Part shown: piece by piece, positions 10,601 through 64,000 of the stretch
Numbering within the stretch: the stretch's first letter is position 1
Layout of the letters: every line of letters starts with the position of its first letter
Assembly (NCBI GenBank): GCA_034231615.1
Contig: CM067314.1
Span: forward strand, 10,763,740-10,827,739
DNA from: Meghimatium bilineatum
Taxonomy: Eukaryota > Mollusca > Gastropoda > Stylommatophora > Philomycidae
Direction: 5' to 3'
Length of the DNA: 64,000 nt
Notes under the pieces: generated by a model
What the model saw: only the letters and a program-made list of their open reading frames with translations
Told to the model about the DNA's origin: nothing
Databases searched by the model: none
Program-made: the position numbers and the translations under genes

Positions 10601-13600
10601 ACAACAGTGAGTACTTAACTTTCCACTTTCCCACAATACACATTCACTTTTTCACACAAAAAGGCCACTTTATTTTTGGAAACTGTGACCTAGATTTGTC
10701 ATATTGTTACTACACAGAACAATATGTAAAAAGTAAAGTTAACCCATAGCATTTATTAATGATGTAGGGGTGTGAGATGTTAGCGATATCACATTTCATT
10801 GACTCTGCTATATGAGGGCAGTAGCCATTTCCTCTTCCTCACAGTTTTTAACTTCCTGCATTAATCTGATACCCAATTATGGCTGGGTCCACCCGGGAGC
10901 CATTGCGATCTGAAAAACATTCCCGCCTCAACTGGTGAATGAACCTAAGATCACTCACATGCGAAGCCAGTGCGCTAACCACTGTACTACGATTTTCCCT
11001 AATATAACAAAACAGGAGATATAACAAAACCATATGACACTCAACTGTAGATCAGAGAGTTGCCCTCCACTAAATGGGCAAGTCCATTTTCTGCGGTTGG
11101 TATCTAGAAAAGCATCAGAGGTCAATCCTCTATGAATTCTGAACTTTTTCTTGATTAAAAAAAGGCCTTCCTGCCATATGATAAAATTATTCTGTATGTC
11201 TGTTTATGTCTGTTTGATAGTGTTCATTTTCAAACTCCCACCACATCTCTCGTGTGTAACACAACAATCACCCTACTAGACTTCCAGCAGGATGTAGTCA
11301 AGAGAACGGAGAGTGTTGTGTCACCGTTCCATTTGTATCACTGGACCACTAAACCCAACTTCAACAGACATATTTTTAAAAAATGTATTGTCCTGTATTT
11401 GAAATAATCACCTGGTTGTGCAAGTCACCTAGAACAGATGCAACATCCTCCAGTCTTGCTGGTGAGCTCAGTGATGTCAGTATGTTCTCTAACTCATCTA
11501 CCTGTTGAATAAAGTAGTCACAACAGCATTTACTTCACTTCATATCAACAGACAACTATGGAATTATTTATAAGTTATCAAATTTCTTCAAAGTTCTTTC
11601 TCAAACTCCTGCATATCAGCCAGATATAGTCCAGAGAACAGAGTGCGTTGAGTCATGGTTTACAGCTTAGCTGTGATATCTATGCCTTTTGACTTCAGCA
11701 TGTATTCTGGGCAATGCTGCAGATACAAAAAATTGTCATTTATACATTATCATGTGTCAGCTCTACATTTGTAATGGAAAATTTGATGGCTTCTTTATGA
11801 AAACGTGAGGGGATGGGCTTGGCTTTTGACCTATCATTAGGCCACGTTCCTAGTACTAAAAATCATATTCCTATTTACTGAGGGGATTTGAACATCCCAA
11901 CCACCCCTCCCCTCTTACAAACAGGCCTTCTGTGTCACTTTAACTCTATATGGGATGTGACAGTCAGCTCCACTCAAAATCTCCTTAACCGCCTCTTACA
12001 ACATACTTGACATGTAATAGTGTCACTATTCTATGTTTCCCTTTCGAGCCCTGGCAACACATGGGTGGAGTTAGTAAACATAAATCAAACACATCTATTA
12101 CATAATAAAATGTTTTGTGTACAATAACAAATGCAACATGAGACAGTCTAAATGCACGAGACCAAATTTTTAACATCCGAGAACCTCATATGAGATAGAC
12201 ATAGTCAACCCATGTCCAATTCCCTGCTTACCATATCCACCCCAGAAACCATCACCCAGGAACATATTGGTCTGTAAAGCCCAAGTGCACAAAATCTCAT
12301 GACAGAGTTCATACAAAAGTCTGTCAACAGATCGGAAGGCTGACATGACATGACATGACAGAGTTGATACAAAAGTCTATTAACAGATCGGAAGGCTGAC
12401 ATAGTCTATGGAAGCTCACTAGATAAAAAATTATGCCAAAATCGGATGTGCTGGGTTGAAAGGTGCAACTATAGTTTTAATGTAAACTAGCATCACAAAA
12501 TACTCATGTTTGCTGGTTGAAATCACACACAAAATGACACACACTGGTTATAAAAGTGAACGTAAACAAACAACAAATAACCCCATATCTTCAAAAGACC
12601 AAGACCATTACAAAAGCAGCTGACCTTTGATGACTCCACAAAATGTGTTGCAATACCAATGTTTGCTACATCACGAGATTTCAATCTGAAGCCAGTCAAA
12701 GCTAAAAAGATGCCTAATTTGCCCTCTAGTTGAGGAAGAAAGTGTCCAGCACCAACATCTGGGAACAAACCTGGAACATCAAATAAGTTTTCTTAAAATT
12801 AAGTTTTCTTCTCCTTTTGTTCACGGGAAATGTATCTATGTAATTTTGTCACCTGAATAATCTTCACTATTTTTTGTAGCTAATACAGGTATTTATGATA
12901 AACATCACCATCTTTTGTAGCTAATACAGGTATTTATGGTAAACATCACCATCTTTTATAGCTCATACAGGTAGTTATGAAAAACTTCACTGTCTTTTGT
13001 AGCTGAATTTATGAAAAAGGCTAAGGAAAAATTTTCACAGTACAAAAACAAACTAAATGACATGAAAAAATATAGTTAACAGTATACAAAACAGAATACA
13101 TTGATATTTTGACAATAGGGTCTTATCAAGAAAAACATACAGGACAGAGAACAAAATATGAAATGGACTAGACTACAGTCTAGATATGCATGGAGAAAAT
13201 ACTGTGTCCAGTAATAGTGCTTTTCTTCAAGAGTGTGGACTTTATAGGTAAGGCAAGAAGAAGATGCTGTTTACAGAAACAGTGAAATCCTTAAGTGTGG
13301 ACTCTGTAAGAAAGAGAGGGTGCAGAGAACACACAGAGTATAGAAACAGCACAAGAAAGTGGTTTCAGAGGTTCTAAAACAACCCCTAGCCAACAAATAA
13401 CTTACCTATAGCTGTTTCAGGCATAGCAAACACTGTCCTCTCTGTCGCAACCCGGAACTTGCCGTGGACAGACAAGCCAACACCCTGCGAGGAACATGAA
13501 AAGTTTCAAATTTTTTTTAGACTACATATATTTTATAGATGAGTGATTTGTTGAATCAATAATATTAAACACTGTGGAATTCTCATAAGAATCCACATCT

Positions 13601-16600
13601 TTCAGCAGATGACAAAGTTGACATATCCTGTAGCTAGCTGAATGTATAAATCTTTCAACCTACTCCTTAATCATCTCCCCAAGCAATTGAAAACTCCTGC
13701 AATCTTTTAATCTTTATCAAGTTGGATTAAAATTACACAATCTTTTCCCTGCCACCAGTTTATTGTTTTGAAAATTTGCAAAATATTTGGTGGATGGTTT
13801 GAAAATACAATAATTTGTTGGTTTTTATAGATTTTGAAATAACATTTGCACATGTAAATAAACAACTGCATTCTGCAAGTATGTGTGTAATTTATGTTTT
13901 TGTATGTGTGATATGAAAGGCATGAAGTGGTGGTGATTTTTTCCCACAAAAAAACATACAAAAACAATCAACATGGGTGTTTGAAAAACACAATAACTGT
14001 TCTGTTCTTAGAGATTTTAAAATAATATTTGCACATGTGAATAAAGAATTGAATACTGCATATTTTGATCTAAGTTTTGTATGTGTATGTGTGATACATG
14101 AGGGGTGAGAAGGTTGTAAAGGGGGGAAAATGGAAAAATATCAAAATAAAATCAAAAATTCTTTTTTTGGGTACAAATTGCTCATTTTATTTATTTTTCG
14201 ATGTGGCAACTCTGAAACTATCATTTTACACACTGTAACACACTTGAGTCTATTGTATTTATGTAGTTTCATAACCAAACAAATACAATATCGCTGGAAA
14301 AATAAAACATGTAAAAGTAACTTAAAGGTTAATACTAAATATGGTAGACAGGTTACTGAAGAAAACTGTCAATATAAAATAATAGAAAATAACAATAAAA
14401 CAAAGAACAAATACAATTGTCGATGTAGCTGTCCTATTGGGACTTTTATCAAGATATAAAAACAGTTAAGAAAACAAAACCATAACAACAAATATAACCA
14501 AAATGGCTGGGAAAATGATTTCTCTCACCAAAATATCATTACCAAGTAATTTTTGGTGAATTTTCTGAAAGGAAACAGGTCAACGGAAGACAACTTCTGA
14601 AGTCCAAATTAAAAATATATAAATAACCAAACTGTTAGAGGTTATCAGGCAAGGTGAAGAGTTCTGCAGTAACAAAAATAAGAAGAGATAACAACTATGA
14701 TAATGTAATATTGTTACCAGTAACTAAAATAACTAGCAAATAGTAAATACAATGTAAAAGAGAAATAACAAAAACAAATTAAACAGGATTTAATCTACGT
14801 TACGGTTCAACAAACACACATTTTGTCATTTATAATGTAGTGAAATGGAGTCTTGAGATCATTTCAATGGGTTGACAATTTAATCATTTTTTGTGTTTGT
14901 TCGTATTTGTGTCTTGATAAAGTCCCTGTTGTACCATAATGTAGATTAAGTCCTTGTTCCTCTGTGTTTTATTATTTCTGTTTTACATTATTTTTACTAT
15001 TTATTAGTCATATAGTAGTTACCGGTAACAATATTACATTATTATAGTTGTGAAATGAAAATGATCCCCAATGTAAAATTTCTGTATCAATCCTAAAAAT
15101 AAGGTAAAACTGTCTGAGGATTGCACTGAAGCAATGTCTGAGGATTGCACTGTTGGAGGATTGCACTGTCTGAGGATTTCACTGTCTGAAACAAACTTAT
15201 GATAAAAAATATGACTTAAAAAGATTGAAGGACAAAAGAGAAAGACACAAACACAGATGTTCTGTGACTTGTTCACATAGAAGGTTCATTCGTTAGAGGT
15301 ACCGATTAACTAGTTATTTGTTTGCTTAATGACTGTCTGCAAGACCAAGAAAAGTGATAAATGATAAGTGTAAGCACAGTGAAATGCAACAACTATCTGC
15401 CTCTAGTTCTGTATAGGATTCTCATGATAAAAAAAGTAACATGCCACATTGGTCTACTAGCTGCCCTCTGGAAGGCATATAATTTTTTTTGTGTGTGAGG
15501 ATATGTTATCTAGTCTAGTTGCGTTGTACCATGTTACTGGTGCACCTCTCTGTCTGGTATCTTCAAGGTGTTGGCTTGGGTAGGACCGTGGTCCTCATTG
15601 ATGTCACGGATGGCCCGACCAATCTGAGTTTCCAGCCTCTATTAGCTGGACTAAGCATTATCTCCACTTCAAGGAGTTGGCCTCGATGGAACAGACGTAT
15701 AATGAAAACCAGATTATCTTGTTTTTTCATCTTATTCTCTTTTGTCTTGTTAAGAGCATCAGTAGCTATTCATTCTTTCATCTTCATGTACATGTGTATT
15801 ACTGGTCCCGAAAGAGGAGCAGAGAATAGCAACACTATGGCTTTCCTTGAGTGTCCAAAGAGTTGACTAAGTAGATTTAGGGATCGCGATGACTTTCATC
15901 CTGCAGGTCTAAGTGACTCGATGGTCATGCTGAAGTCAGATGTGTTAGGCCAAAAAAGCAAATATATCACAGCCAAGCTGTAAACCATGACTGCATTTCA
16001 TTCTCTTAACATAATATCCTGGTATCAATATATCCTGATAATCAGCAGAAGTTTGAGAATGAAAACAGAAAAGAAAATAATCTTATGTATATTATTCCTC
16101 TAAAATTATGTATCAGTGTTTTTCATATATATTCTTTGAACAGTCAAAGCTAGAAAAAACAGGAGGCCAAAGAAAATTATGGACAGACATCATCATCGAT
16201 GAAGGACTTTGTGTTGATGTGGTACTATTACCACCCTGACGGGTTACAAGGGCTTGTGGATAAATAAATATATTATTTGGTTACAAATGATTTTCTGGAC
16301 TCAAGACATAACCAATATGATACAGAACTACTAGCATGCATACTCTGTTGAAATATATTAACTAAACATGAATTTGTCTGGAATGCAGCTGGAATCAGGT
16401 CTGTTAATTAACAACCTTTAATTTGAGCATCACAATATTACTGCATACAAAGCAACAAAACATACCATAGCACAAAAGCTGATTGTTATTCAATCCTGCA
16501 AAGTCTTACAGCAAAATCAGAGTAAATTTAAGTAGGAAGCCAGAGGACAATTTTTAAAAATTCTTGAGACTAACGGGAATTGAACCAGTCCGTTCTACGG

Positions 16601-19600
16601 CACCAAATCGCCTAGCAACAATTGCAGACGCGTTTTTCCGTACTTGACTAACCACTTCTCCAAAAAAAGATGCGATTTCATCAAGCCATTCAAAACGTGC
16701 ACACAAAGTCACCCGAACGGACCAATCGAGACAAGGACTATTACAACAACAACAAACATCCCGTACAGGTATTGAAATATCCTCAGTAACAACAAACACA
16801 TAACATAATATCTGTATTAGTATACAAGGGCCGATAGGTCTTCTTGTAAACATGGATAACATATATAGACAATACAATTTTGCTTCAAATAATTGTTTAT
16901 ACAAGTAAATTTAAGTAGGAAGCCAGAGGACAATTTTTAAAAATACGGATTAAAAAATTTTTTTTTAAATACTAATACGGATATTATGTTATGTGTTTGT
17001 TGTTACTGAGGATATTTCAATACCTGTACGGGATGTTTGTTGTTGTTGTAATAGTCCTTGTCTCGATTGGTCCGTTCGGGTGACTTTGTGTGCACGATTT
17101 GAATGGCTTGATGAAATCGCATCTTTTTTTGGAGATGCGGTTAGTCAAGTATGGAAAAACGCGTGTGCAATTGTTGCTAGGCGATTTGGTGCCGTAGAAC
17201 GGACTTGTTCAATTCCCGTTAGTCTCAAGAATTCAGCAAAATCAGAGAAAAGACAATAGATAGAACGTATAAGACAGTAGAATAGAGCGACAACTTACCC
17301 CTCCCATTGTGATCCCATCTATGAGTGCTATATAAGGTTTCTTGTAGTTTCCTGAAATAGGAAAAAAAACAATATTTATTCAGGCACAAACATAAAACAT
17401 ATAAAATTATGAGTTATAGAAAATGTGACAGGCTTTAGCAAGGTGCACTGCCAAGGCAATGGGGAAAAGTGGAACAATCTTTAGACACAGAGTGTCAGCA
17501 GAAACCTAGGTAGTTTCATATTGGATGATAAACAAGCGGTAGCAAGCAGACCAAATGTAGATGCTTTCACAGCATCATAGGGTGGGGAAGATTGATTCAC
17601 AGCATCATAGGGTGGGGAAGATTGATTCATAGCATCATAGGGTGGGGCAGACACTTTCACAGCATCATAGGGTGGGGAAGATTGATTCACAGCATCATAG
17701 GGTGGGGAAGATTGATTCATAGCATCATAGGGTGGGGCAGACACTTTCACAGCATCATAGGGTGGGGCAGACACTTTCACAGCATCATAGGGTGGGGCAG
17801 ATTGATTCACAGCATCATAGGGTGGGGAAGATTGATTCATAGCATGATAGGGTGGGGAAGATTGATTCACAGCATCATAGGGTGGGGAAGATTGATTCAT
17901 AGCATCATAGGGTGGGGAAGATTGATTCACAGCATCATAGGGTGGGGCAGACACTTTCACAGCATCATAGGGTGGGGCAGACACTTTCACAGCATCATAG
18001 GGTCAGGCAGATGGTTTTGGAGTTGGCTGTCACATTCCAAGGAGGGTCAATTACTGGAGCATTACTGAAATCGGATATGTCAGCCGAAACTTCAGATATC
18101 ACAATCAATCTGTAAACCATGACACAACGCATACTGTTCTCTGGACTACATTCTGCTAATCTTCATATAAATAAACCAAATATCGGAGGATGTCCGACAA
18201 AAAGGAAGTGCCGAAGTAACCAGACAAATAGAGGTAAAAGCAAATAAGATAAATAGGTCACTATAAAACTATCAATATAAAATAATAAAATATAGAAAAT
18301 AACAATAAAACAAAGAACAAATACAATTGTCAACATGTCTGTCCAATTGAGACCTTTATCAAGACAACAAAAACAAATATCATTGTTATCTTTTTTCAAG
18401 ATGACAATTTATGGTAAACTCTCCGAACTGACTTCAAGATCACAAGTTTCTATCGCTCCAAATTAACTTCAAAATAACAAATTACTCTCTCCAAATTAAC
18501 TTCAAGATCACAATTTATCTCTTTCTCCAAATAGACTTCCAGAACAAAATAGATTAATCTCACTGTACCTATTTTGTGATTTAAAATGTATTCTTCTCTG
18601 AAGAACTCTTGGGCAACCGGATCTCCTTTCTTTCCAGCTTCTGTCACAGCTAGAAACAGATATATATATATTGAGACATTAATAATAATATAACAGTATC
18701 TTAATCAATATGAATCATGCCATGTGTTGCGGATGATTACATTCTCCACACTCATTTGCTTTTTTCAACATTTCAAAAATTCAGATGACCACATCTTACG
18801 CAGATATTTTGTTTCAACATTCCAAAACTTCAGATGCCCACGTCTTACTCAGATATTTTGTTTCAACATTCCAAAACTTCAGATGCCCACGTCTTACTCA
18901 GATATTTTGTTTCAACATTCCAAAACTTCAGATGCCCACGTCTTACTCAGATATTTTGTTTCAACATTCCAAAACTTCAGATGCCCACATCTTACTCAGA
19001 TATTTTGTTTCAACATTTCAAACTTCAGATGCCCATGTCTTACTCAGATATTGTTCCATTTTTACAGAGTTGTGAAATACCAAAATTCTGTTTTGATTTG
19101 ATTTCTATCTGTTACAAACTACAGAGTCAAATCATTTTATAAAATGTTCACAATAAACTTGAACATTCTTCTTCTTCCTCCTTCAGTCAGTGAACAGGTT
19201 ACAGTACCAATAGCTTCAATGAACTGTATAATTCTCCTTCAATCAGTGAACAGGTTACAGTACCAATAGCTTCATTTTCCTTTAGGTCATCCATGGAGCC
19301 TATCAGAATTGAAAGTAGTGCTGTCTCAGTAGGCCATATTTTTCTTCCTCTCTTCTTGGTAGAGGTGACCTGCATGAAGAATGTGTTCTTTCGTCTCTGG
19401 GCTCAGTCCACAGCCACACCATTCTGTCTCATCAATTTTGAGATTTCTGAACATGTGACTTCTCACTTCTCAGTCTGTTGTGGCCAGTTCGTAGTCTTAA
19501 GATAATGATTTGTTTTTTGCGTGATATTTGGTGGTAGGGGTCATTTGGTTCTGCAGTTGAGTGCATCTGCTTCCAATTTTTCTTATATTCGGCTTTTATC

Positions 19601-22600
19601 ATAGTCTTACATTCACAGCATGCAATATCATTTTTCTTTTTGTTCTACTGATCCCCCTTCCATTGCCTTTTCATTTCCAAGTATGCCACACTGACCAGGG
19701 ATCCACTACAGAACTGTTTCTTTGGTGGTAGTGTTGAGGTGTATCAAGCAGGACATGAGTTAATTCATGCTCATGTTCCATGGATCTTTCAACAATCTCC
19801 AACATCACTCCTTACCTCGAATGTCACCTCCAGCACAGAAAGACTTCTCTCCAGCACCCTTAATAAGAACTAGCCCAATCTTGGGATCCGTTTCCCAGTT
19901 CTGCAGAAGAGAATAACTACATTTTAGAAATGTGGCTTCATCTATCACAAGGAGACTTACAAGCAACAGATTAATGTCAGTCTAAGTTCACTTACAGCCC
20001 ACTCAAGTGGGTCTTAAAAACTAGAGCTACTGAGCTGGTCACACTTCAACAGCTAATAACATGTTCAGAAAATTGTATGTTTTTCTAGCAGGGTGACTGG
20101 TTCAAGCATAGCTTTTTATTCCTTCTGTGTTAAGTCCCAGGCATATTTAATGTCTAATAAGGAGAAAAATGATAAATTATAGTGAAAATTAGAAAATGAC
20201 AATCAAGATTCTTAGAGGAAGTGATGAGAAAAGTAAAACTTAAACATTTAGTAACCACTGGAAAGATCAAGGGGAGAAGAGACAGAGAAATTACTAGATG
20301 GATTGTCACTGTTTCACAAAAAGAAGTCCCAACTCAACTTATTAACAACACAGAAGACAGAGGGTCTACGCCACTCTGCATGTCACTGGATTGATTGAAT
20401 AAGGATCACAAGTCAATACAAACAAATTTAGCCAGGTAGGTCTTAGAAATGTAATACAAAAGAAAGAAAGGATTATGGAGGAACTTAAAATACTACTGAA
20501 GAATAATGAAATAAACCAATATCAAACATATTGTGATGTAATAAAAGTGGATAAGCTCTTCCTAAATGGCGGTGACTATAAAATACACTATTTGTGAACA
20601 AAGTCAGTTGTATGTCATGAATGCTGTCATCTTTCCTACTATCTGAGAACCAGAGGTGAGGTCCCATGAGTATGCGCAGAACCTGAATTAATTTCTTGAA
20701 AGTTGGCATCTGTGATCAGATTGATATCTACCCAGACAACAGCAAAATAGTCAAGTATTGCTGACTCGCTAGCATTCAGATTGGTGAACGGACAGGCTGG
20801 GGGAATGGACAAATGTGTAGTGTGAGTCTATCCACTATTCACTAAACCCTTTATTGCCTTTCAGCTTCAGGGGTAGAAGAGTTCTCTGGAGATGGCCCTC
20901 ATGTGTGCTAAGTATATTGTGGAATTTGTCGCCTCTTTTATTTAGGTGGTCCATCGTTTTCGAGGTCGGCCTCTAGGTCTGTCTTCTCTGTATCTGTGTA
21001 GCATAGCCTGATCACATTAAACAGGCTGGGGGAACGGACAAGAGTGTAGAGTGAGTAATGCTATTAAACAGGCTGGGGAACGGACAAGTTATACGATACA
21101 GTATACAATACAAGGACTTTGCCATCCTTAAGAAGAGCGACATAAACGACATGGTTGGCAAGTTTAACGGAAGCATCAAGAATGGTACTATCCAGGAAAA
21201 ATCGCCTTCTGGTGTGACGATTTTGGGGCACTGATCAACCAAGAGAAGGCTGCAGTGACATGGTTCTCTCTTAATAATCACATCGTAAAGTCTACGACAC
21301 TGACGGTAGAGATGAGAGGGTATGATATAATCAGGACCTCTCCTTACAATATATAGGCATGCGATTTGATCGTAGTCTGTGTTTCTAGGAACACGTTGAT
21401 CATGTTATCGCAAAGGCCCGTAAAGGACTTTCAGCTCTGAGAGTGATGGCAGCGGCTGACACTAACAACCACAGCTCGTAATCTTATATGAGGCTCGTCC
21501 TCCGTCATTGAAGATTGCAGGCGCCACTATCATCGCCAGTCACACACAGATTGAGAGGCTGGAGAGGATTCAAAACGAAGCGATGCGGATCATTCTTGGT
21601 TGCACAAGGGACACACCCTGTGTGGCTATGAGATTTCTCCTTGATTTTCCTAGCATGTCTCATAGAATTGATATGTGACATGCCCGCGCATACCTTAAGA
21701 GTGAGTTTTGACATATATCACCCACTACACAGTGAGCTTCTACGTGTGAAGGGAAGCAGGCTTAAGAGAGGCACATCGTGGATGGGTTGGGCCGAGGATA
21801 CCGTTAAACATATCTGTGCCCCAGAAGACATAACTCCTGGTGAGGAATGGATACCTATTCCTACGATCTTTCAAGAGGCAGTCAAGACTGTGATTACACT
21901 CAATAGAGAGTGCAGGGAACAGTTCCGTGAGCATGGAAGCTGAGGTCAAGGCACTAACATGTGAGAATACTGATGACAAAGATGTTGTGATTTACACGGA
22001 TGGGTCAGTCATCCGTCAATACCGATGCGCATGGGCCTTTACTGCCAGATCAAAAGGAAGAACAGTACACAAAGCCAGTGGTGCCTTTACCACAACAACA
22101 AGCAGCCTAACAATGGAAGTATTCGCAGTAACGCAGGCACTTAAATGGCTGGAATCACAAGCCTATTCCAATGCATGCATACTAAGTGACTCTCTGAATA
22201 TGATTCAGAAAACCAAAACAGGTGATGTATGTAGGGAATGGGCGGAGTCATTTGAGAGAGCAGAAATGCGGGTATCACTATGAAGACTCACGCTTATTTT
22301 TGTCCCCGTACACGCGGGCGTGAGGGGAAACAAACGAGCCGACCAATTAGCTATCCTCGCTACCACAACAGACGGTCAGCCTATTGACCGAGCAGACAAA
22401 CTCATTGCTCTTCGTGAATCCTCATGATCAGAGGATTTTGAGATGAATAAGCATGAGTCAATATCGAGAATGCATGAATTGAGAGTGAGGATGGGCATGG
22501 CCCGTAGAGAACCCCAGACAAAGTTTTCAAAAAGAGCAGTGAACCAACATAGAACCAGAACATCAGCCGTTATACCCTGAGAGATTTACTGAAGCAGAGA

Positions 22601-26847: not shown

Positions 26848-26848
26848 C

Positions 26849-26891
<43 letters not shown>

Positions 26892-51400: not shown

Positions 51401-54400
51401 ATGTTGGAGCAATTTATATGTGCAAATCTGACAATGGGCATTTAAAGTGTCAATGAACTAGTTAGGCTGGTCGCATGTCCACCAGTGGTAGAGCAAACTA
51501 AGAGGGACATTTAATCATTAAAACCTAGTCACCACCTTCGCATGTATCTGAACAATGAAAATAACCATTTGGGAGAGTAAATACGAGTCACCGTGTGTGC
51601 GGTCTTTTGTTGGATAATCTTGCGATCTGATATAAAGACTTTACCATATTGGCAGAAACACTTTATGACAAAAGTTGAGGTCCACAGTTGAGTAACCGAG
51701 GCAACACGTAGACATGTATAAGGTTTGTTGTCTCAAAAGCATGGTTATTCCCATTACTGTTAGTTATGTTGTTGAGATAGCAGAGCCTCATGGGTAGGAC
51801 TCAAGAAAGTTCAGCTTTTGGATATGGTAACAGAATGAGTGATACTCGTTACACTTTAATACAGCATTTTGTCTTGTGTTCATGAGGTTCCTGAATCGGT
51901 CAGGTCACACTGTTTTGTTTATAAATACATTTGATTTGGAGTATGGGTTTAATTGCTACCTTCATCATCAAAACTAAATCAATCGATACAAATTCAGTGA
52001 GGGGAACTCTTCTGTAACATTCATACTTCAATATTGAAACACATCCATATAACCACATCAGAAGGACAGCTGGAGAGGAGATGGGCACCACTAGCTAAAC
52101 CTTTTGCCCACTGAAATACTACAATGGATAATCACACATAGCATGGTTCGGACATGTTATGCAGGCACGATTCCTTGTCAAAAACAATACTGCAGGGAAC
52201 TGTCGAGGGTGGAAGAAGCAGAGGAGGACAAATAAAGACATGGACAGACAACATCAAGGAATGGACAGGGCTAGATATTTCCACACTCATCCGCATCGCT
52301 GAGGATAGAATTCGCTGGAGGACTCTGTGTGCTGAAGCTTCCAATGTGGTACCCCTACGACCCTGAAGGGTTATGGGTTTTATTGATTATATTGATTGAT
52401 TGAAATTCTGAAATGTTGAAATACAATACCTTAGTAAGACATTAAATATAAGTTTATACTGATGGAACGTAACAACAATATTACTTACATAGAACACAGG
52501 TTTTTGAAGGTTTCACTTGAACACGACGAACTATCCCTAACACTGATGAGTTATGAGGTGTAAACAAGAAAACAAACAAATTACAATACACAAGACATTT
52601 TCAACGTCTCGAACCGTCAGGTCTTTCTAAAGAATATATAAAACAGTGAAAACCAATGTCAACACCACAGAAGCACAGGATATACTATTGACATGTTTGC
52701 TTTCAAATGTTGAAACAAGATATCTTAGTAAGATTTTGGGCATCTGAAGTTTTGAAATGTTCAAACATGATATCTTAGTAAGACCTTGGGCATCTGAAGT
52801 TTGAAATGTTGAAACATGATATCTTAGTAAGACACAGGTATCTGAAGTTTTGAAATGTTGAAAAAGCAAATGCGTGTGAAGAATGTAATTATCAGCAACA
52901 CATGGCATGATTCATATTGATTAAGATACTGTTATATTATTATCAATGTCACATTATATATATATCTGTTTCTAGCTGTAGCAGAAGCTTGCAAGAAAGG
53001 AGATCCAGGTGCATTAGAGCTCTTCAGAGAAGGATACATTTTAGATCACAAAATAGGTACAGTGAGATTTATGTATTTTTTCTTCTAGAAGTCAATTTAT
53101 AGAAAGAGATAAACTTGTGATCTTAAACTTAATGTGGAGAGATAGAGAGTAACTGTGATCTTGATGTCAATTTGAAGAGAATCCTGAAGTTGGTTTGGAG
53201 AGAGAGGGAAATGTGTTTTATGGAAGCCAATTTGGCGAGAAAGAAAATAATTTGTAATCTTTAAATCTTTGAAGAGAGAGATAACTTACTTTTCTGAAAG
53301 TGAAAGATGTTTGATCACACAACACCTACTTACCACCATGAGTCACTTCTATTTCTGAAAGTTAAAGATGTTTGATCACACAACACCTACTTACCACCAT
53401 GAGTCACTTCTATTTCTGAAAGGGAAAGATACTTGACCACGCAACACCTACGTATACCATCGTAGGTCATTAAACAGAGGCTGAGGCCATCAAGACAGCC
53501 ATTGCTTTAATACATCTACAGTTAGATCTTATGGAACAAATCCCGTCACATAGACAATTTTATAGTAAATTTTGGAAGCAATTAAATATACCCCATATGA
53601 AAATCAAGATATTCTCCACATAGCGTGAACAGTCTTATCTCTGCATTTCCAATCAGTATGACCACGCAATGAATCCGTGGACATGATGATGATGATGTTC
53701 CCCCTTCGCAAGCGAAGATGAGTATGACGTGAAAACATTAAATGCGATGAAATAAAAAATAATAATAATTAAAATTGGTAATTAACTAATTTGGTTTGTG
53801 AGTTTGTAGATGCCCGATGAGTCCGATTCGTGTCGGAAAGTTCTATTGCAGTGCATGCAGGAGTGCTGAAGGTTCGGAGTAGAAGAATATTCGGATTTGT
53901 CCTTCCGCTTCTTTGCGCTTGTGGATTGCCCGCAGTGTTCTTTCTTTTTTCAAATGTCCTGATGTGATCTTAGTGTGCCAGACTGAGCGATGAAGTGATG
54001 TAGTCTCTCAGGAGCTAGGATCGATGCTGCAGTGCTTAAGGGGCTTTTTAGGTGATCATTGAAGCGCTTTTTATGCCCTCCACTTGAATGGTTACCTTCG
54101 CACAGCTCCCCATAGAATAATCTCTTTGTAAGGCGCTTGTGCATATAACGATATAGCAGGAAGCAAAGTAGCAGACAGACTTGCAAAAAGAGGCTCCTCA
54201 AAACAACAGAAGCAAAGACCTGGTACTATGGGAACAGTCAAATAGATTCTTTAAAAAAGGGAAATCTGGCTGAACAGATTGGAAAATGGCTGACTTGTTG
54301 AAATGTATTTAGTGAAAAGATAGCCAAAGGACAATAACAACATAAACAAACTCTGAGACCAATCCCTTATCTTTCAGTTTGAAATATGATATGCAAGGAT

Positions 54401-57400
54401 CAATAGCTATTTCAACTGTATCAAACTCCAGCAGTTACCCACTTGTAGACACTGCGCTCATCCCAATGAAACAGTGGAACACCTCCTTATTAACTGCCCT
54501 TACCTTTCAACTGCCAGGGAAAAAAAACTTCTACAGATACCCTTAACAGTCACTAACTTACTGTTTGGATCACTAAACCAACTTCACAAGACCTGGACTT
54601 TTTTTTAGAATGGTATTGTGCTGACAAGAGTACACTCTACTCATCAGCATTTGGATGTTGACAACAACAACAACAACAACAATCATGGGTCGCTTCTATT
54701 TCTGAAAGTGAAATATACGTGATCACATAACATCTACTTATTATAGTAAGTCACTTTAAATTATTTATATTCTGTATTTCCTTACCGGTGCTTCCAAACC
54801 GTTACCTCCAGAGGCTACTTCTGATCCTCAATAAAGGAATGATCTGTAAGTCTTCTAATCTTCTTCTGTGTTAATTCTCAACACCCGCAGATTAGCAGAA
54901 TGTAGTCCAGAGAACGGAATGTGTTGTATAATGGTTTACAGCTTGATTGTGATATCTGCACCTTTCGACCTGACATATCTAACTTCAATATGATTTCTGG
55001 ATCGCTTTGACCCTCTTTATAATGGGACAGCCAACTTCAAAACCATCTGTCCTACCATACGATTCTACTCCACCCTATGATGCTGTGAATCAATCTGCCC
55101 CACCCTATGATGCTGAGAAAGTGTCTGCCCCACTCTATGATGCTGTGAAAGTGTCTACCCCACTCTATGATGCTGTGAAAGTGTCTGCCCCACTCTATGA
55201 TGCTGTGAAAGTGTCTGCCCCACTCTATGATGCTGTGAAAGTGTCTACCCCACTCTATGATGCTGTGAAAGTGTCTGCCCCACTCTATGATGCTATGAAA
55301 GTGTCTGTCCCACTCTATGATGCTGTGAATCAATCTTCCCCACCCTATGATGCTGTGAAAGTGTCTGCCCCACTCTATGATGCTGTGAAAGTGTCTGCCC
55401 CACTCTATCATGCTATGAAAGTGTCTGTCCCACTCTATGATGCTGTGAAAGTGTCTACCCCACTCTATGATGCTGTGAAAGTGTCTGCCCCACTCTATGA
55501 TGCTGTGAAAGTGTCTACCCCACTCTACGATGCTGTGAAAGTGTCTGCCCCACTCTACGATGCTGTGAAAGTGTCTGCCCCACTCTATGATGCTGTGAAA
55601 GTGTCTGCCCCACACTATCATGCTATGAAAGTGTCTGTCCCACTCTATGATGCTGTGAAAGTGTCTGCCCCACTCTATGATGCTGTGAAAGTGTCTGCCC
55701 CACCCTATGATGCTGTGAAAGTGTCTGCCCCACCCTATGATGCTGTGAATCAATCTTCCCCACCCTATGATGCTGTGAATCAATCTTCCCCACCCTATGA
55801 TGCTATGAATCAATCTTCCCCACCCTATGATGCTGTGAATCAATCTTCCCCACCCTATGATGCTATGAATCAATCTTCCCCACCCTATGATGCTATGAAT
55901 CAATCTTCCCCACCCTATGATGCTATGAATCAATCTTTCCCACCCTATGATGCTATGAATCAATCTTCCCCACCCTATGATGCTGTGAAAGAATCTGCAT
56001 TTGGTCTGCTTGCTACCGCTTGTTTATCATGCAATATGAAACTACCTAGGTTTCTGCTGACACTCTGTATCTAAAGATTGTTCCACTTTTCCCCATTGCC
56101 TTGGCAGTGCACCTTGTTGAAGCCTGTCACACTTTCTATAACTCATAATTTTATATGTTTTATGTTTGTGCCTGAATAAATATTGTTGTTTTTTTCAATT
56201 TCAGGAAACTACAAGAAACCTTATATAGCACTTATGGATGGCATCACAATGGGAGGGGTAAATTGTCTCTCATGTTCTATCGATTGACTTTTCTCTGATT
56301 TTCTGTAAGACTTTTCAAGATTGAATAACAATCAGCGTTTGTGCTATGACATGTTTTGTTGCTTTGTATGCAGTAATATTGTGATGCTCAAATTAAAGGT
56401 TGTTAATTAGCGGACCTGATACCAAATGCATTCCAGACAAAAGTATGTGTAGTTAATATATTTCAGCAGAGTATGTATGCTGGTAGTTATGTATCACATT
56501 GGTTATGTCTGAGTCCAGAAAATAATTGATAAAGAAAGAATATATATATCTATCCACAAGCCCCTATAACCAATCAGGGTGATAATAGTACCACATTGGA
56601 TGCATCAACACAAAGTCCTTCATCGATGATGTTGTCTGTCCGTGATATTCTTTGTCATCTTCTGCTTCTTCTAGCTTTGACTGTTCAAAGAATATATGAA
56701 AAGCACTGAAAAATAATTTTTAGATTTGTATCTGAGTTTTACAATTGTTAATCATGCCGAAATCGGATGTGCTAGGCCTACAAGGCGCATAACGGTGGCA
56801 CAACGTAATCACGCTCCCGGCGGAAATCGCACGGATATCCGTGATGGATATCCGTAATGGAGCGAACGAAAAACAAACAAACAAACAATTGTTAACAGCG
56901 GTTCTTGTTGACCCACTAATAAATGAATTCTATCACGTACAAACACATTGGTTTTCATGTTCTCTGATACGCAACACGCGTCTCTAGCCAGGATTATTCT
57001 CTCCAAGTTTGCAGCTAGAGCCCAGGTCTCATTGCTGTATAGACATATTGACAGAAACAAACATTCATATATCTTAACACATTGTGGTAAACTGCGAATA
57101 AATCACTGACTAAAGTCATAATACAACTAGATAAAGCGTGTGGAAAATGGATTGACATCGGGGCTCAGGATACAGTGCAGGAACTCGCCCAGTTACACTC
57201 GAAACCACAAGATATAATTATATACACATATGGCTCCGTTAACAGAAACACAAATAAAAGCGGTTAGAGTTTTGTTACCTACAGAAACGGCATGAAGTTG
57301 GTTGAGAATTCAGCATATTCTACTGTCACATAGAGCATGAGGATGGAGATAGATAGAGTTACAGCAACACTTAATTGGTTGATAACTGATACATCAACAC

Positions 57401-60400
57401 ACGCGGTAATACTCACAGACTCTCAAAGCATGCTGCGAAAGATAGAAAAGTTCATGCTAAGAAAACAATAGTGGGACTTATTGAACAACTCAGTTGTCCA
57501 TAGCATTACATGGATATACTGCCCTGGTCATGCTGGGGTCAGAGGAAATGAGAGAGCCAACATATTGGCAGACAATGCGGTGATAGACGGCACATTGCTG
57601 AGAAGAGATAAAGCAGACTTACTGAAGGCAGTAATAAATTCATTTAAAGATGCAGATGATGTCAATGAGGCTGAGAACGCACACATACAGAGAATGTTAG
57701 AAATGGGAGTATCTAGAGGTGAGGGAAGGAAAAGTAAATTTTTGGAAAGTCCCGAAGATCACACAATCAACTCCTGACCGGGACTCTGAGTCTACATACA
57801 CTGGGATGGCTGCTGGAGCGGAGGGCGGAGCACTTATGGGAATGTCCCGCGTTCTGTGAAGCCAATTTCTAGTCAAGAATCAAGAGAACACATTGTGATG
57901 ATCCTACTTTTCCAAATGGTGGTTTTTCAATTGTGAGTTCTGAGATAAATGAAGAGTCCTAATCCGGACTCAGAAAATAAAAGTTGCAGTGTGAATAGGA
58001 ATGAAGACGATCTTGTGATTAGGGAATACAGTCTTACTCCTTTCGTTTTTGACTCTTACAAATCGCTTACGTTGTTCTACTATGTTAAAAGCTTTTAACA
58101 CTCACAATAACTTGACAAGACGAGGTGGTTAAGTATGTTTATTAAACCACTGACGAGGTGGTTAAGTATGTTTTTTAAACCACTGACGAGGTGGTTAAGT
58201 ATGTTTTATAAACCACTGACGGGGTGGTTAAGTCTGTTTATTAAACCACTGACGGGGTGGTTAAGTCTGTTTATTAAACCACTGACGGGGTGGTTAAGTC
58301 TGTTTATTAAACTACTATGACGGATAAAACCAGTGAGAGTAGCTAGTAGGCTTATGTTTCTAGTTATCTTATAAAGATTGTTCTGTTCATATGTGTGAAG
58401 TCTGGATGCGACGGACTGCACAAAGGAACTCAATTAAATAGAGCTAATGGGCAGAAAGGCATCATCCAGTAAACATCGTAGCTAGCACGTTGTGAGTACG
58501 GTCAGACAGAAAGGCACCCTTGTCATCTACTGCACATCAACACGCCCTCGGTTGTCTTTATCTTGTTTTACCACTGAGATCAAGTATAATTCTTCATGAT
58601 TCTTGATTATTGATTAGAAACTGACTTCACAGCACGTGGGGGCATTCCCATAAGTTCTCAGCCCTCCGCTCCAGCAGTCATCCCAGTATATGTAGACCCA
58701 GAGTCCCGGTGTTGATTGTGTGATCTTGGAGACTTTCCAAAAAATTTACTTTTCCTCCCCTCACTTCTAGATACTCCCATTTCTAACACTCTCTATATGT
58801 TCTTCTTCTTCTTCTGCGTTCGTTCTCAAACTCCTGCAGATTAGCAGGATGTAGTCCGGAGAACGGAATGCGTTGTATCATGGTTTACAGCACTGCTGCG
58901 ATATCTGCGCCTTTCGGCCTGACGCATCCGACTTCAGCATGGCTGTGGGTCACTGACCCTATATGGGATGGGACAGCCAACTCCATCCCATAACCTCCTT
59001 AGTCGCCTTTTACGACATGCGTGGAAGGTAAACAGTGTGCTATTCTTTTCTCCCCTTCGGGCCCCGGCAACACACGAGCGAGTAACTCTCTGTATGTGTA
59101 CGTTCTCAGCCTCATTGACATCATCTGCATCTTGAAATGAAGTTATTACTGCTTTCATTATGTCTGCTTTATCTCTTCCCAGCAATGTGCCGTCTATCGC
59201 CGCATTGCCTGCCAATAAGTCGGCTCTCTCGTTTCCTCTGACCCCAGCATGACCAGGGCAGTATATCCATGTAATGCTCTGGACAACTGATTTGTTCAAT
59301 AAGTTCCACCATTCTTTTCTTAGCATGAACTTTTCTATCTTGCGCAACATTCTTTGAGAGTCTGTGAGTATTCATACATCAAGTATGAGATTGCAAGAAT
59401 CATATTGACGACATTGCGCAATTATCCCTCGTCTTAATCAATCCAATTCTCATTGTACAAGCGATGGCATACTCATCATGTAATATTACATCATATAACA
59501 ACAACTAATACTACAGTTATGATCCTTTACGCGATAAGGGAGACTAATTGTGATTAGAAACTTGTGTTACTGTTACTGCTAGTTTTACTGCAGCCTAAAA
59601 AAATATGAAACTTTTCCTGTTCCTCGCAGGGTGTAGGCTTGTCTGTCCACGGCAAGTTCCGAGTTGCGACAGAGAGGACAGTGTTTGCTATGCCTGAAAC
59701 AGCTATAGGTAAGTTGTTAGATAGTGGCTGTTTTAGAACCTCTGAAACCAACTTTCTCGTGCTGTTTCTGTACTCTGTGTGTACTCTGTACTCTCTCTTT
59801 CTTATAAAGTCCACACTGTTTCTGTAGACAGTATCTTCTCCCTGCCTTACCTATAAAGTAAAGTCCACACTCTTGAAGAAAAGCACTATTACTCTACACA
59901 GTATTTTCTCCATGCAAATCTAGACTGCAGTCTAGTCCATTTCATTGTTTGTTCTCTGTCCTTTTTTTTTCTTGATAAGACCCTATTGTCAAAATATGAA
60001 TTTATTGTTTTGTATACTGTTAATTATATTTTTATTTGAGTTAGTCTGTTTTTGTACTGTAAAAATTCTTGCGTAATCATTTTCATAAATATCTGTATGA
60101 GCTATAAAAGACGGTGAATTTTACCATAAATACCTGCATAAACTACAAAAGATATGGAAGTTTACCATAAATACCTGCATAAACTACAAAAGATAGGGAA
60201 GTTTACCATAAACACCTGTATGAGCTACAAAAGATATGGAAGTTTACCATAAATACCTGCATAAGCTACAAAAGATATGGAAGTTTACCATAAATACCTG
60301 TATGAGCTACAAAAGATAGTGAAGTTTACCATAAATACCTGTATAAGCTACAAAAGATATGGAAGTTTACCATAAATACCTGCATAAACTACAAAAGATA

Positions 60401-62922
60401 GGGAAGTTTACCATAAATACCTGCATAAACTACAAAAGATAGGGAAGTTTACCATAAATACCTGTATAAGCTACAAAAGATAGGGAAGTTTACCATAAAT
60501 ACCTGTATAAGCTACAAAAGATAGGGAAGTTTACCATAAATACCTGCATAAGCTACAAAAGATAGGGAAGTTTACCATAAATACCTGTATAAGCTACAAA
60601 AGATAGTGAAGTTTACCATAAATACCTGTATAAGCTACAAAAGATAGGGAAGTTTACCATAAATACCTGCATAAGCTACAAAAGATAGGGAAGTTTACCA
60701 TAAATACCTGCATAAGCTACAAAAGATAGGGAAGTTTACCATAAACACCTGCATAAGCTACAAAAGATAGGGAAGTTTACCATAAATACCTGCATAAGCT
60801 ACAAAAGACAGTGAAGTTTATTAAAGTGACAAAATTACATAGATGCATTTCCCGTGAACAAAAGGAGAAGAAAACTTATTTTAAGAAAACTTATTTTAAG
60901 AAAACTTATTTGATGTTCCAGGTTTCTTCCCAGATGTTGGTGCTGGACACTTTCTTCCTCAACTAGAGGGCAAATTAGGAATCTTTTTGGCTTTGACTGG
61001 CTTCAGATTGAAATCTCGTGATGTAGCAAACATTGGTATTGCAACACATTTTGTGGAGTCATCAAAGGTCAGCATCTTTTGTAATGGTCTTTTGAAGATA
61101 TGGGGTTATTTGTTGTTTGTATACGTTCACTTTTATAACCAGTGTGTGTAAATTTTGTGTGATTTCAGCCAGTAAACATGATTATGTTGTGATGCTAGTG
61201 TACATTAAAACTATAGTTGCTCCTTTCAACCCAACACATCCGATTTTGGTATAATTTTTTTTATCTAGTGGGCTTCCATAGACTATATCAGCCTTTCAAT
61301 CTGTTGATAGACGTGTGAATCAACTCTGTCATGAGAGTTTATCACCAACTGTGCACTTAGACTTACAGACCAATATATTCCTGGGTGATAGTTTCCGGGG
61401 TGGATATGGTAAGCATGGAATTGGACTTGGGTTGACTGTGTCTATCTCATATGAGGTGCTCGGGTGCTAAAAATCTGGTCTCATGCAATTAGATCGATAA
61501 TATATACTTACTGCTCAAAACTGAAATCCAAAAGGCAAATCCAGGAATAGGGTAATGAAGTTTTGCTAATCACTCAAGACACACATAATATCACACACAA
61601 ATTGACGTTTCAACCAAAAGGCCTTTAGCAAGTCAAAAATTAAAACAAAATTAACACTTACAACAGAAAACGGACAGTAAGGATATGGACGTTCACATCG
61701 GCATGCGTAATATAGACTGACAGGAAGAGATGAAACGACACCGGACAATGAATATACAAAAATGACTACATACATGTGACACGAAACAAACAGAAACTAT
61801 GGAACAACGAGAATCATACATGAGACAGTCGTTCATTAATTTCATCGGGTTTAAGAGTGCCATATTATTAAATGTAGCGGTTCTCATGCGCAAGACGGGT
61901 CCGGTCGTTAGAGAAGCACGACTTAATGGACGTAACCTGAATTTCCTGGGCGCCCCAATGGCCCGTGCCATTGAAGTGGACGTTTACTAAATAACCCGAG
62001 CGGTTTTTTAATGCTATAGAGATGTTCACAAAATCGGTTTGCGAGCCTCCTTCCAGTCTCGCCTATATATGCCATGGCGCAACGCTTGCATGTGATGGCT
62101 TAGATGACGTTGCGAAACACACTAATGAAGCTCTCCTAAATAATGGAGGTAGCTTTAGGAAATGGGATTCTCATGCAATTAGAATGTCTCTTGTTGCGTG
62201 TGTTAATGTATAAAAAAAACTTTTATTATGTAATAGATGTGTTTGATTTTTGTTTACTAACTCTTCCCATATGTTGCCAGTGCTCGAAAGGGGAACATAG
62301 AATAGTGACACTACTACCTGTCAAGTATGTTGTAAGAGGCGACTAAGGTGATTTTTGACTGGAGCTGGCTGTCATATCCCGTATAAGGTTAAAGTGACCC
62401 AGAAGGTAAGAAAGGAGTGGTGGTTGGGATGTTCAAATCCCCTCAGTAAATAGGAATATGACTTTTAGTACTAGGAACTTAGCCTAATGATGGGTCAAAA
62501 GCCAAAGACCATCCCCCTACCCCTCGCATTCTTATAAAGAGGTAATCACATTTTTTTCATTACAAGGTAGAGCCGACACATGAACACATACGAATGACTT
62601 TTGTGTATCTGCGGCCCTGTCCTGAAGACATGCTGAAGTCTGATATGTCAGGCAAAAATGCACAGATATCGTAGCTAAGCTGTAAACCATGACACAACTC
62701 ACTCCATTCTATGGACTATATCTGGCTGATATGCAGGAGTTTAAAAAAGATTTTGAAGAAGTTTGCTAACTAATAAATTATTCCATCAAAATGATGTGAA
62801 GTAAATGATGTTCTAACTACTTTATTCAACAGGCAGATGAGTTAGAGAACATACTGACATCACTAAGTTCACGAGCAAGACTGGAGGATGTTGCATCTGT
62901 TCTAGGTGACTTGCATAACCAG
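45294..62922 (+). CDS. HIBCH: 3-hydroxyisobutyryl-CoA hydrolase, right copy (HIBCH-R), exons 2-8, continues past window
   Basis: Mirror copy of HIBCH-L on the plus strand. Exons: 45294-45437, 46588-46672, 52976-53056, 56205-56257, 59630-59708, 60922-61067, 62833-62922, with lengths and phases identical to the left copy (144, 85, 81, 53, 79, 146, 90). Exons 9 to 11 would lie beyond position 64000. No frameshift or stop is seen, and all visible splice sites are GT-AG. Hand comparison with HIBCH-L gives 32 differences in 678 nt, roughly 14 synonymous and 18 nonsynonymous, with 16 residue changes. The oxyanion loops and the MPETAI block are intact; GLFPDVG reads GFFPDVG. Exon 4 is an outlier. The ATG in left exon 2 is TTG here. 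Intron 3 has grown to 6.3 kb by retroelement insertion. It could be a functional paralog, a diverging duplicate under weaker constraint, or a second haplotype placed in inverted orientation. Confidence 0.93.
45480..45825. repeat. 51-bp minisatellite, about 6.5 copies
   Basis: Unit ttgtcctcctctatatccct plus 31 bp ending catacccctca. HIBCH-R intron 2 only. Confidence 0.92.
45925..46290. repeat. 73-bp minisatellite, about 5 copies
   Basis: tcctgacattagtgctcttt recurs at exactly 73-bp spacing (45931, 46004). HIBCH-R intron 2 only; the left arm holds a retroelement block here. Confidence 0.92.
46588..46672 (+). CDS. HIBCH: HIBCH-R exon 3
   Basis: 85 nt with intact CAGGDIR oxyanion loop; protein identical to HIBCH-L. 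Acceptor tgcag, donor gtaagg. Confidence 0.95.
46985..47165 (+). mobile_element. Jockey-like C-terminal fragment, shared by both arms
   Basis: Mirror of 19505-19290. Reads [18 protein letters not shown] text on the plus strand with the cysteine tail partly deleted (a 25-bp loss against the left copy). Confidence 0.6.
47195..50536 (-). mobile_element. long Jockey-like family X element with flanking duplication
   Basis: Minus strand order: 5' UTR block (50536-50330); EN (50160-49500) with [60 protein letters not shown] and [15 protein letters not shown] (GDFN and SDH motifs); RT pieces (49015-48630 and 48400-48170, matching 30960-30540 and 29930-29740); RNase H and cysteine-tail remnants (48100-47330); and a GAAGAAG tail at about 47210. 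Near-identical 13-bp repeats gggaattacacag / ggggattacacag (47182-47194, 50537-50549) flank it. Foreign pieces are lodged at 48365-48640 and 49020-49505. Inactive. Confidence 0.78.
50925..51155 (+). mobile_element. SINE S2, tRNA-derived
   Basis: tggcgtagtggttaagctgt (box A), gggttcgaatgtcg (box B), then a ggtggatttttttcgg body. Second copy of 10275-10035. HIBCH-R intron 3. Confidence 0.78.
51160..52020. other. HIBCH-R intron 3, C-rich run and short repeats only
   Basis: A C-rich run at 51241-51270 and a short (atg)n. 51975-52020 repeats the sequence just upstream of HIBCH exon 2 (aaattcagtgrggrgaactc, compare 22940-22975). Nothing else recognised. Confidence 0.35.
52140..52405 (+). mobile_element. 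family A 3' end with ATTG tail
   Basis: Reads [58 protein letters not shown] then NVVPLRP stop and attgattg. Cleanly open, so relatively recent. Confidence 0.85.
52720..52865. repeat. 49-bp minisatellite, about 3.5 copies
   Basis: Unit gatatcttagtaagaccttg plus 29 bp. Mirror of 18780-19060. Confidence 0.88.
52976..53056 (+). CDS. HIBCH: HIBCH-R exon 4, strongly diverged
   Basis: 81 nt, same phase and splice sites as the left exon, but 12 nt and 7 residues differ (T/A, G/C, V/G, Q/L, F/L, E/G, N/D). The conserved FFREEYILN block becomes LFREGYILD. The frame stays open, so this is substitution rather than decay by indel. Confidence 0.92.
53290..53430. repeat. about 60-bp tandem repeat, 2-3 copies
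   Basis: gatcacacaacacctactta and gtcacttctatttctgaaag repeat. A separate remnant at 54690-54760 suggests the array was split by the insertions at 53670-54655. Confidence 0.75.
53670..54150 (-). mobile_element. non-LTR 3' end with zinc-finger remnant
   Basis: Minus strand reads [37 protein letters not shown], and [17 protein letters not shown], with the second histidine pair lost, then a (cat)n tail at 53680. Same type as 38582-39011. Confidence 0.75.
54150..54655 (+). mobile_element. Jockey-like C-terminal fragment
   Basis: Starts [19 protein letters not shown] text (end of RNase H), later [20 protein letters not shown], the C-x2-C...H...C tail after RNase H, then [13 protein letters not shown]. 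Ends in (caa)n. Confidence 0.72.
54880..54995 (-). mobile_element. SINE C 3' half, shared by both arms
   Basis: agattagcagaatgtagtcc and ggtttacagcttgattgtga; mirror of 18165-18050. Confidence 0.65.
55055..55990. repeat. 30-bp minisatellite, about 31 copies
   Basis: Unit ccctatgatgctgtgaaagt plus ctgcccca, with a gaatcaatcttcccca variant clustered at the 3' end. Both strands stay open: 355 codons on plus (55007-56074), 303 on minus. HIBCH-R intron 4. Twice the length of the left array. Confidence 0.94.
56205..56257 (+). CDS. HIBCH: HIBCH-R exon 5
   Basis: 53 nt, [17 protein letters not shown]. One residue (I to M) and three nucleotides differ from the left copy. Donor gtaaat is weaker than the left gtaagt. 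Confidence 0.94.
56560..56690 (-). mobile_element. family A 3' end, shared by both arms
   Basis: Mirror of 16150-16290, with the ggtgataatagtaccacatt end block. Confidence 0.6.
56810..57065 (-). mobile_element. family A-like RT C-terminal fragment
   Basis: Minus strand reads [32 protein letters not shown] and [10 protein letters not shown], comparable to LYGCESWTLTADMERR and GVQEPLLSIV at 27300-27120. Confidence 0.7.
57100..57900 (+). mobile_element. Jockey-like RNase H and C-terminus, plus copy of inverted pair
   Basis: Reads [16 protein letters not shown] (TDGS motif degenerate), [75 protein letters not shown]. Frame breaks. It pairs with 58570-59380 in inverted orientation. Right arm only. 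Confidence 0.82.
58125..58320. repeat. 33-bp minisatellite, about 6 copies
   Basis: Unit ctgacgaggtggttaagtat plus gtttattaaacca; each unit has a small self-complementary tggttaa / ttaaacca pair. Lies between the inverted RNase H copies. Confidence 0.92.
58570..59380 (-). mobile_element. Jockey-like RNase H and C-terminus, minus copy of inverted pair
   Basis: Minus strand reads [60 protein letters not shown], with more intact RNase H residues than the plus copy. Interrupted by SINE C at 58801-59084. Confidence 0.85.
58801..59084 (-). mobile_element. SINE C, complete copy with 13-bp target duplication
   Basis: 284 bp, with actctctatatgt (58788-58800) and actctctgtatgt (59085-59097) at the ends, one mismatch. 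The uninterrupted site is seen in the paired copy at 57690. 5' end ttactcgctcgtgtgttgcc, 3' end gagaacgaacgcagaagaag on minus. This defines the full unit for the partial copies elsewhere. Confidence 0.85.
59630..59708 (+). CDS. HIBCH: HIBCH-R exon 6
   Basis: 79 nt with the MPETAI catalytic block; protein identical to HIBCH-L (two synonymous changes). Acceptor tcgcag, donor gtaagt. Confidence 0.95.
60110..60820. repeat. 41-bp minisatellite, about 17 copies
   Basis: Unit ataaatacctgcataagcta plus 21 bp ending gaagtttacc; 41-bp spacing from 60122 to 60778. HIBCH-R intron 6. Left arm has about 3 copies. Confidence 0.94.
60922..61067 (+). CDS. HIBCH: HIBCH-R exon 7
   Basis: 146 nt. It starts [17 protein letters not shown], one residue changed (L to F) from the left copy. 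The acceptor lies about 90 bp after the end of the expanded 41-bp minisatellite; donor gtcagc. Confidence 0.95.
61493..62168 (-). mobile_element. Penelope-like element remnant, GIY-YIG end, 14-bp target duplication
   Basis: Minus strand reads [20 protein letters not shown] and [11 protein letters not shown], matching the HFN-GH and KPxGIN features at the end of Penelope-like GIY-YIG endonucleases. Downstream is aaaggccttttggttgaaac. Exact repeats tctcatgcaattag at 61479-61492 and 62169-62182 flank it; the left arm near 12140-12175 lacks the insert. Confidence 0.82.
62265..62745 (+). mobile_element. SINE C, split copy, shared by both arms
   Basis: 5' part 62265-62410 (gctcgaaaggggaacataga), 3' part 62625-62745 (aagctgtaaaccatgacac). 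Mirror of 12065-11590. Confidence 0.6.
62833..62922 (+). CDS. HIBCH: HIBCH-R exon 8
   Basis: 90 nt, begins [20 protein letters not shown]. Differs from the left copy by V to A and P to R plus three synonymous sites. Last exon of this copy inside the window. Confidence 0.93.
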
Positions 62923-62984
62923 GTGATTATTTCAAATACAAGGCAATACATTTTTTTAAAAATTATATATGTTGAAGTTCGGTG

Positions 62985-63110
62985 TGGTGGGCCAGTGACA
63001 CAACACTGTCCGTTTTCTTGACTACATCCTGCTGGAAATCTAGTATGGCGATTGGTGTGTTAAACGAGAGATCCGATGGTAGTTTGAAAATGAACACTAT
63101 CAAACAGACA
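62985..63110. mobile_element. SINE C-related fragment, shared by both arms
   Basis: ctacatcctgctggaaatct block, mirror of 11400-11230. Confidence 0.5.
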
Positions 63111-63324
63111 TAAATAGACATACAGAATTATTTTATCATGTGGCAGGAAGACCTTTTCTTTTAATCAAGAAATAAATCATAGAAATCAGAAATCATAGAG
63201 GATTGACCTCATTGATGCTTATCTTGATACCAACTGTAGAACATGGACATGCCCATTTAGTGGAGGGTAATTCTCTTAAAAACAGTTGGACATCATATGG
63301 TTCTGTTATATATCCTGTTATATA

Positions 63325-63800
63325 TTAGGAAGTCACATAGCCCAGTGATTAGCGCACTGGCTTCTTATAAGAGTGGTGCTGGGTTCATTCCCCAGTTGAT
63401 GTGGAAATGTTTTTCAAACGACAATGCCTCCCAGGTCAACCCAGCTTTAATTGAGCACCAGATTAATCCGGGAAGTAAAGACAGCGAGGGAGAGGAGATG
63501 GCTACCGACCTCATACAGCAGAGCCACTGAAATGTGAAATCGCTAACATCTCACACCCCTATGGCATTAATAAATGCTATGTCTGTGTGAGAGAGAGAGG
63601 AGATTCTACCACCCACATATAGCAAAGCGTCTGAAATGTGAAATCGCTAACATCTCACACCCCTATGGCATTAATAAATGCTATGTCTGTGTGAGAGAGA
63701 GAGGAGATTCTACCACCCACACATAGCAAAGCGTCTGAAATGTGATATCGCTAACATCTCACACCCCTACATCATTAATAAATGCTATCGTTAACTTTAC
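63325..63800 (+). mobile_element. SINE S1 with triplicated 104-bp tail, shared by both arms
   Basis: Head cagtgattagcgcactggct with B-box gggttcattcccc. The 3' end cgctaacatctcacacccct recurs at 63541, 63645 and 63749, a 104-bp period. The left-arm copy (10738) has a single tail. Confidence 0.82.
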
Positions 63801-64000
63801 TTTTTACACATGGTTCTCTGTAGTAACAATACGACACAAATCTAGGCCACAGTTTCCAAAAATAAAGTGGCCTTTTATTTGTGTGAAAAAGTGGATGTAT
63901 ATTGACAGTAAATGACCTGGTTATTGGTTTTTTAAACTGAAAATGTATGGATATATCTGTTTAGTTTGGAGTACAAGTTTATTCACTGTTCTGTCTGCTA

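Follow-up and report, generated by a model that had tools for sequence, protein, structure and literature searches.

The palindromes of the mammalian X and Y chromosomes are the closest described counterparts of the locus reported here. In the available portions of two reports (PMC8981503, PMC3403216), they likewise have inverted arms, genes that face outward, and evidence of sequence exchange from arm to arm. These sex-chromosome palindromes retain above 99% identity, according to the accessible part of the first report (PMC8981503). The locus considered here is a pair of genes for HIBCH, an enzyme of valine breakdown, in a 64,000-nucleotide stretch of DNA (the window; C17:10763740-10827739) from an animal assembly of 1,612,235,226 bases in 32 contigs. 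We consider it probable, judging from sequence comparison, that the pair arose when HIBCH was long ago copied as an inverted segmental duplication, with patchy arm-to-arm conversion since. By this proposal, a segment of about 32-39 kb carrying the whole HIBCH gene would have been duplicated in inverted orientation so as to adjoin itself, which would have created two divergently transcribed HIBCH paralogs. The arms would then have accumulated substitutions, insertions private to one arm and changes in their arrays, and meanwhile short tracts (about 0.5-1 kb) would have been overwritten by between-arm gene conversion.

A BLAST comparison of the window with itself yields a colinear inverted chain, and thus the two-armed inverted structure noted in a preliminary description is real. 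Single blocks of this self-match reach 1,790 bits, such that chance is not an issue. The search was widened by 50 kb of flank per side, which brought the examined sequence to 164 kb. Neither this region nor the 80 kb surrounding an older paralog (see below) contains a single N. The main structural features, in window coordinates that run below 1 and above 64,000 where they leave the window, are as follows.

1..28735 in the window, onward left to about -3715 (C17:10760024), minus strand: left arm
28736..40081, no strand: spacer between the arms, 11.3 kb, with decayed non-LTR retrotransposon pieces
40082..64000 in the window, onward right to about 79472 (C17:10843211), plus strand: right arm
28620..28701, no strand: 16-bp minisatellite at the left inner boundary
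40115..40244, no strand: 16-bp minisatellite at the right inner boundary, partner of 28620..28701

The inner limits of 28730 and 40085 proposed in the preliminary description proved accurate to within a few bases (28735 and 40082 were found). The outer limits proposed there, 10640 and 63905, are not the arm ends. Both arms extend beyond the window edges and are therefore longer than first described (left about 32.5 kb, right about 39.4 kb), and positions 1-10640 of the window likewise belong to the left arm. An earlier observation of array changes between the arms is also borne out by five position-paired arrays of unequal length, including a 41-bp array that spans 148 bp in the left arm versus 737 bp in the right.

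At both inner ends, homology stops just beyond the 16-bp minisatellite. On the right, outer homology stops 34 bp short of a 4.4-kb array of 24-bp units. This array occupies window coordinates 79506-83872 and holds about 183 copies. On the left, outer homology stops within a coding-like ORF, beside a 42-bp tandem repeat. This ORF, which carries a 14-residue tandem repeat, has no Pfam match at E 0.1, and fragments of its DNA recur at scattered places in the genome. Because the terminal 64 bp of the outer homology is part of a dispersed repeat, other copies of which often start at the same point, the outer end is defined less sharply than its inner counterpart. The arms may in truth stop short of the outer limits given here, by about 320 bp on the left and 65 bp on the right, at -3398 and 79407 rather than -3715 and 79472. 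The same 64 bp meant that no polarity was obtained when the parental arm was sought at the outer boundary. Beyond the outer ends the chain retains just four short matches, repeat-like and at other offsets, and no colinear homology. The first comparison of the widened region used a threshold of 150 bits inside the 164 kb and of 120 bits for matches to the paralog locus, and it omitted inverted matches starting at 17500-18100. The tandem repeats at the edges would fit a repeat-associated origin, of which junctions of this age are presumably too old to carry a sign.

Each arm holds a HIBCH gene of 10 coding exons that specifies 381 amino acids. The predicted exons are as follows.

1553..22921, minus strand: left HIBCH gene, 10 coding exons, 381 aa
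22921-22727, 19900-19816, 18649-18569, 17351-17299, 13484-13406, minus strand: left exons 1-5
12770-12625, 11501-11412, 8705-8550, 4681-4543, 1674-1553, minus strand: left exons 6-10
45243..64000 in the window, continuing outside, plus strand: right HIBCH gene, 10 coding exons, 381 aa
45243-45437, 46588-46672, 52976-53056, 56205-56257, 59630-59708, 60922-61067, 62833-62922, plus strand: right exons 1-7
64957-65112, 68657-68795, 72337-72458, plus strand, beyond the window: right exons 8-10

The genes are divergently transcribed, with start codons about 22 kb apart. The identical exon lengths noted earlier hold for 10 of 10 coding exons, which measure 195 (51 + 144), 85, 81, 53, 79, 146, 90, 156, 139 and 122 bp in both arms, and exon 7 was located at phase 0. 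Both reading frames are open across all 381 codons. The first exon contains an in-frame ATG, preceded by stops in both arms, which is the predicted start, and a search for a separate upstream first exon gave no convincing candidate. The 364-residue parts of the two proteins match PF16113 (ECH_2) over positions 2-335 of 335 with 450.9 bits (left) and 442.1 bits (right), and therefore both pass the curated cut-off of 27.2 bits at full length. Among PDB structures, the right copy is closest to human HIBCH (3bpt; E 1.8e-131). Both translations contain the MPETAIG and FPDVG blocks, which we take to hold the active-site Glu and Asp of HIBCH. The 17 N-terminal residues include lysines and no acidic residues, a composition usual for targeting peptides. 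It is most likely that both genes encode mitochondrial 3-hydroxyisobutyryl-CoA hydrolase, and both copies are apparently functional.

Between the copies, 44 of 1,146 coding bases and 22 of 381 residues are different (dS 0.079, dN 0.028, dN/dS 0.35). Only 20 changes are synonymous, and the dS of single exons ranges from 0 to 0.38. The dN/dS ratio fits purifying selection, with the limit that a ratio from a paralog pair cannot prove constraint on both members. Exon 3 is an outlier, with 12 of its 81 bases and 7 of its 27 residues changed between the copies. There the right copy reads REGY, and the third place of this motif is Glu in the left copy and in three homologs (human, 6yw5 and 4hdt). Perhaps the right copy is drifting or under looser constraint. 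When 12 of the 21 differences in the 364-residue part were polarised by hand, nine fell to the right copy and three to the left, a difference (p 0.15) that does not establish asymmetric protein evolution. As a long shot, one might speculate that long-term partial exchange between the arms leaves right exon 3 free to diverge, the conserved Glu of REEY included, and other parts repeatedly reset by conversion. The resulting enzyme would be a mosaic that might accept new substrates or serve in a non-catalytic role.

A recount of the arm alignment, with overlapping blocks trimmed, covers 15,287 columns, so that 47% of the left and 39% of the right arm is aligned. Its 14,141 noncoding columns differ by 8.9% and its 1,146 coding columns by 3.8%. 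Two doubtful SINE pairs, compatible in position, were left out of this recount and of the relic comparison below because their copies look like separate insertions of different age.

-2857..-2585 with 76324-76585: omitted SINE pair, 74.4% identity
15804-16075 with 58806-59064: omitted SINE pair, 68.7% identity

Noncoding divergence of about 9%, together with a dS of about 0.08, suggests that the duplication is old. This divergence is also highly uneven. Counts in 123 windows of 100 columns have a variance of 29.2, versus 7.9 expected if the rate were uniform (chi-square 451, 122 d.f., p 3e-39), in a test that treats windows as independent when strictly they are not. Inclusion of both doubtful SINE pairs gives a noncoding divergence of 9.4% and p 4e-53. 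A first count, which kept both SINE pairs and was based on 35 chained blocks without the two that hold exons 1 and 5 (hence 872 of the 1,146 coding columns), agrees: its 13,337 noncoding columns differ by 9.25%, and its 116 windows have a variance of 38.2 versus 8.3 (p 3e-54).

Divergence is low in tracts at about 19281-20163, 24208-24811 and 27680-28701, with another such tract near -104 to 195. Two of these tracts and the elements they contain are central to the argument for conversion.

27680..28701, no strand: inner low-divergence tract of the left arm, 97.4% identical to 40163-41185, probable conversion tract
40163..41185, no strand: its right partner
28084-28277, no strand: old SINE within the left inner tract
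19281..20163, no strand: exon-2 low-divergence tract of the left arm, 97.2% identical (without gaps) to 46326-47180
46326..47180, no strand: its right partner
19281-19792: dispersed 512-bp element inside the left exon-2 tract

Transposon relics held at matching positions by both arms offer a way to read these tracts. Five shared SINE relics are 89.2, 89.1, 79.7, 97.6 and 98.5% identical between the arms (p 4.8e-9), and a sixth relic, the 512-bp element, has 14 mismatches per 485 aligned bases. The six thus split into three that differ by 11-20% and three that differ by 1.5-2.9%, with the caveat that the low-divergence relics sit in tracts already known to be low. Both searches with tract elements scored 40 matches. 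The inner-tract SINE (3,097 candidates) is 79-86% identical to 38 other copies, and the 512-bp element (3,891 candidates for its tract) is 82-83% identical to 38 others. The inner and exon-2 tracts are complete in the two arms only, among the 40 matches scored per search.

The duplication could be real and the low tracts nonetheless reflect functional constraint or low local mutation instead of conversion, which is the strongest competing explanation and one that we regard as unlikely. The inner tract lies upstream of the gene and could carry regulatory sequence, another low tract includes an exon, and a regional mutation rate or hidden constraint can likewise yield patchy divergence. However, the low tracts contain old relics that, for two of the three, are 14-17% or more from their nearest scored relatives. 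Between the arms these tract relics are only 1.5-2.9% apart, whereas the figure for three SINE relics outside the tracts is 11-20%. Relics that are near-identical in places and this far apart in others are hard to explain by function. The relic pattern therefore favours short-tract gene conversion over constraint, and the main alternative would be a regional mutation rate. The GC content of the inner tract (0.312-0.317, versus 0.371 and 0.383 for the arms) is not raised, and so there is no sign of GC-biased conversion.

The preliminary description had left open whether the locus is a true inverted segmental duplication or whether the assembler had joined, in opposite orientation, two very divergent haplotypes of a single HIBCH locus. 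The first of these is supported, and the second now appears quite improbable. The arms do share the order of their features, as alleles would. However, such a join would require chimeric junctions without gaps, given the absence of N across the 164 kb. It should also let homology run past the outer limits, yet colinearity is lost inside N-free sequence at each of the four limits, inner as well as outer, even though sequence runs on to both sides. Furthermore, alleles would hardly be expected to differ by about 9% in noncoding sequence and to align over just 47% of the left arm. This divergence is roughly twenty times the heterozygosity of 0.47% given for one land snail, the giant African snail, in the available part of its genome report (PMC6802634).

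The possibility that the inner inverted repeats are the terminal repeats of one large transposon was rejected as exceedingly improbable: about 1 kb of 97% inverted repeat does flank a spacer with reverse-transcriptase pieces, but the full repeat is present in the two arms only among 40 scored matches, homology runs past it through a host gene with introns, and the tested spacer pieces are decayed non-LTR fragments. The RVT_1 matches number two among the five spacer ORFs tested. No host gene was recognised in these five, drawn from 37 ORFs of at least 75 amino acids over 28000-41000, a sampling that might overlook a small gene. Four matches of one spacer ORF (E 0.008-0.06) all fell below the curated cut-offs and were taken as chance.

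Returning to the duplicated HIBCH pair, a search of the genome with the family profile gave 14 matches, all of them over the cut-off. Nine lie in the arms and their continuation, three at C17:4.660-4.678 Mb, one on C23 and one on C19. The locus at C17:4659229-4679379 matches the left protein in eight pieces with 38-68% identity, and its noncoding sequence shares scattered repeats with the arms and no colinear chain. To judge from these similarities, this locus is an older HIBCH paralog, 6.1 Mb away from the pair on the same chromosome. Thus, the rule that HIBCH is usually single copy, invoked in the preliminary description, fails in this genome, and the copy number of HIBCH cannot be assumed to be one. 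A search for literature on HIBCH gene duplication in molluscs or HIBCH paralogs in snails found none.

Two further observations were made along the way. A pair of 265-bp inverted repeats, 97% identical, occurs at window positions 16559-17233 in an intron of the left HIBCH gene. It has relatives at the older paralog locus and is perhaps a fold-back or MITE-like element. Separately, C2:121989805-121990428 is a partial nuclear copy of the mitochondrial COX1 gene that includes five TGA codons, and its sequence looks like that of a pulmonate gastropod. Because this is the sole COX1 match reported, a mitochondrial contig is seemingly absent from the assembly.

The HIBCH pair is a fresh instance, as read from its sequence, of a well-known process, namely inverted segmental duplication with conversion. 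It is also a well-bounded natural case, in which the shared transposon relics serve as internal clocks by which conversion can more easily be told from constraint. Unlike the mammalian palindromes, the HIBCH arms exhibit apparently patchy conversion, their aligned parts average about 91% identity, and much remains unaligned. Also unlike the mammalian X and Y examples, nothing points to a sex chromosome at this locus. At the protein level, the same family includes mS47, a HIBCH-like mitoribosomal protein (6yw5, 6xyw and 9evs). The match to mS47 is weaker than that to 3bpt, and a ribosomal role here is without support. The nearest relative of known structure is human HIBCH (3bpt), which the right copy matches colinearly over its full length and whose MPETAIG and FPDVG blocks are kept in both copies. 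In contrast to the human gene, the gene here is duplicated in inverted orientation, and the REGY motif of its right copy lacks the Glu at the third place.
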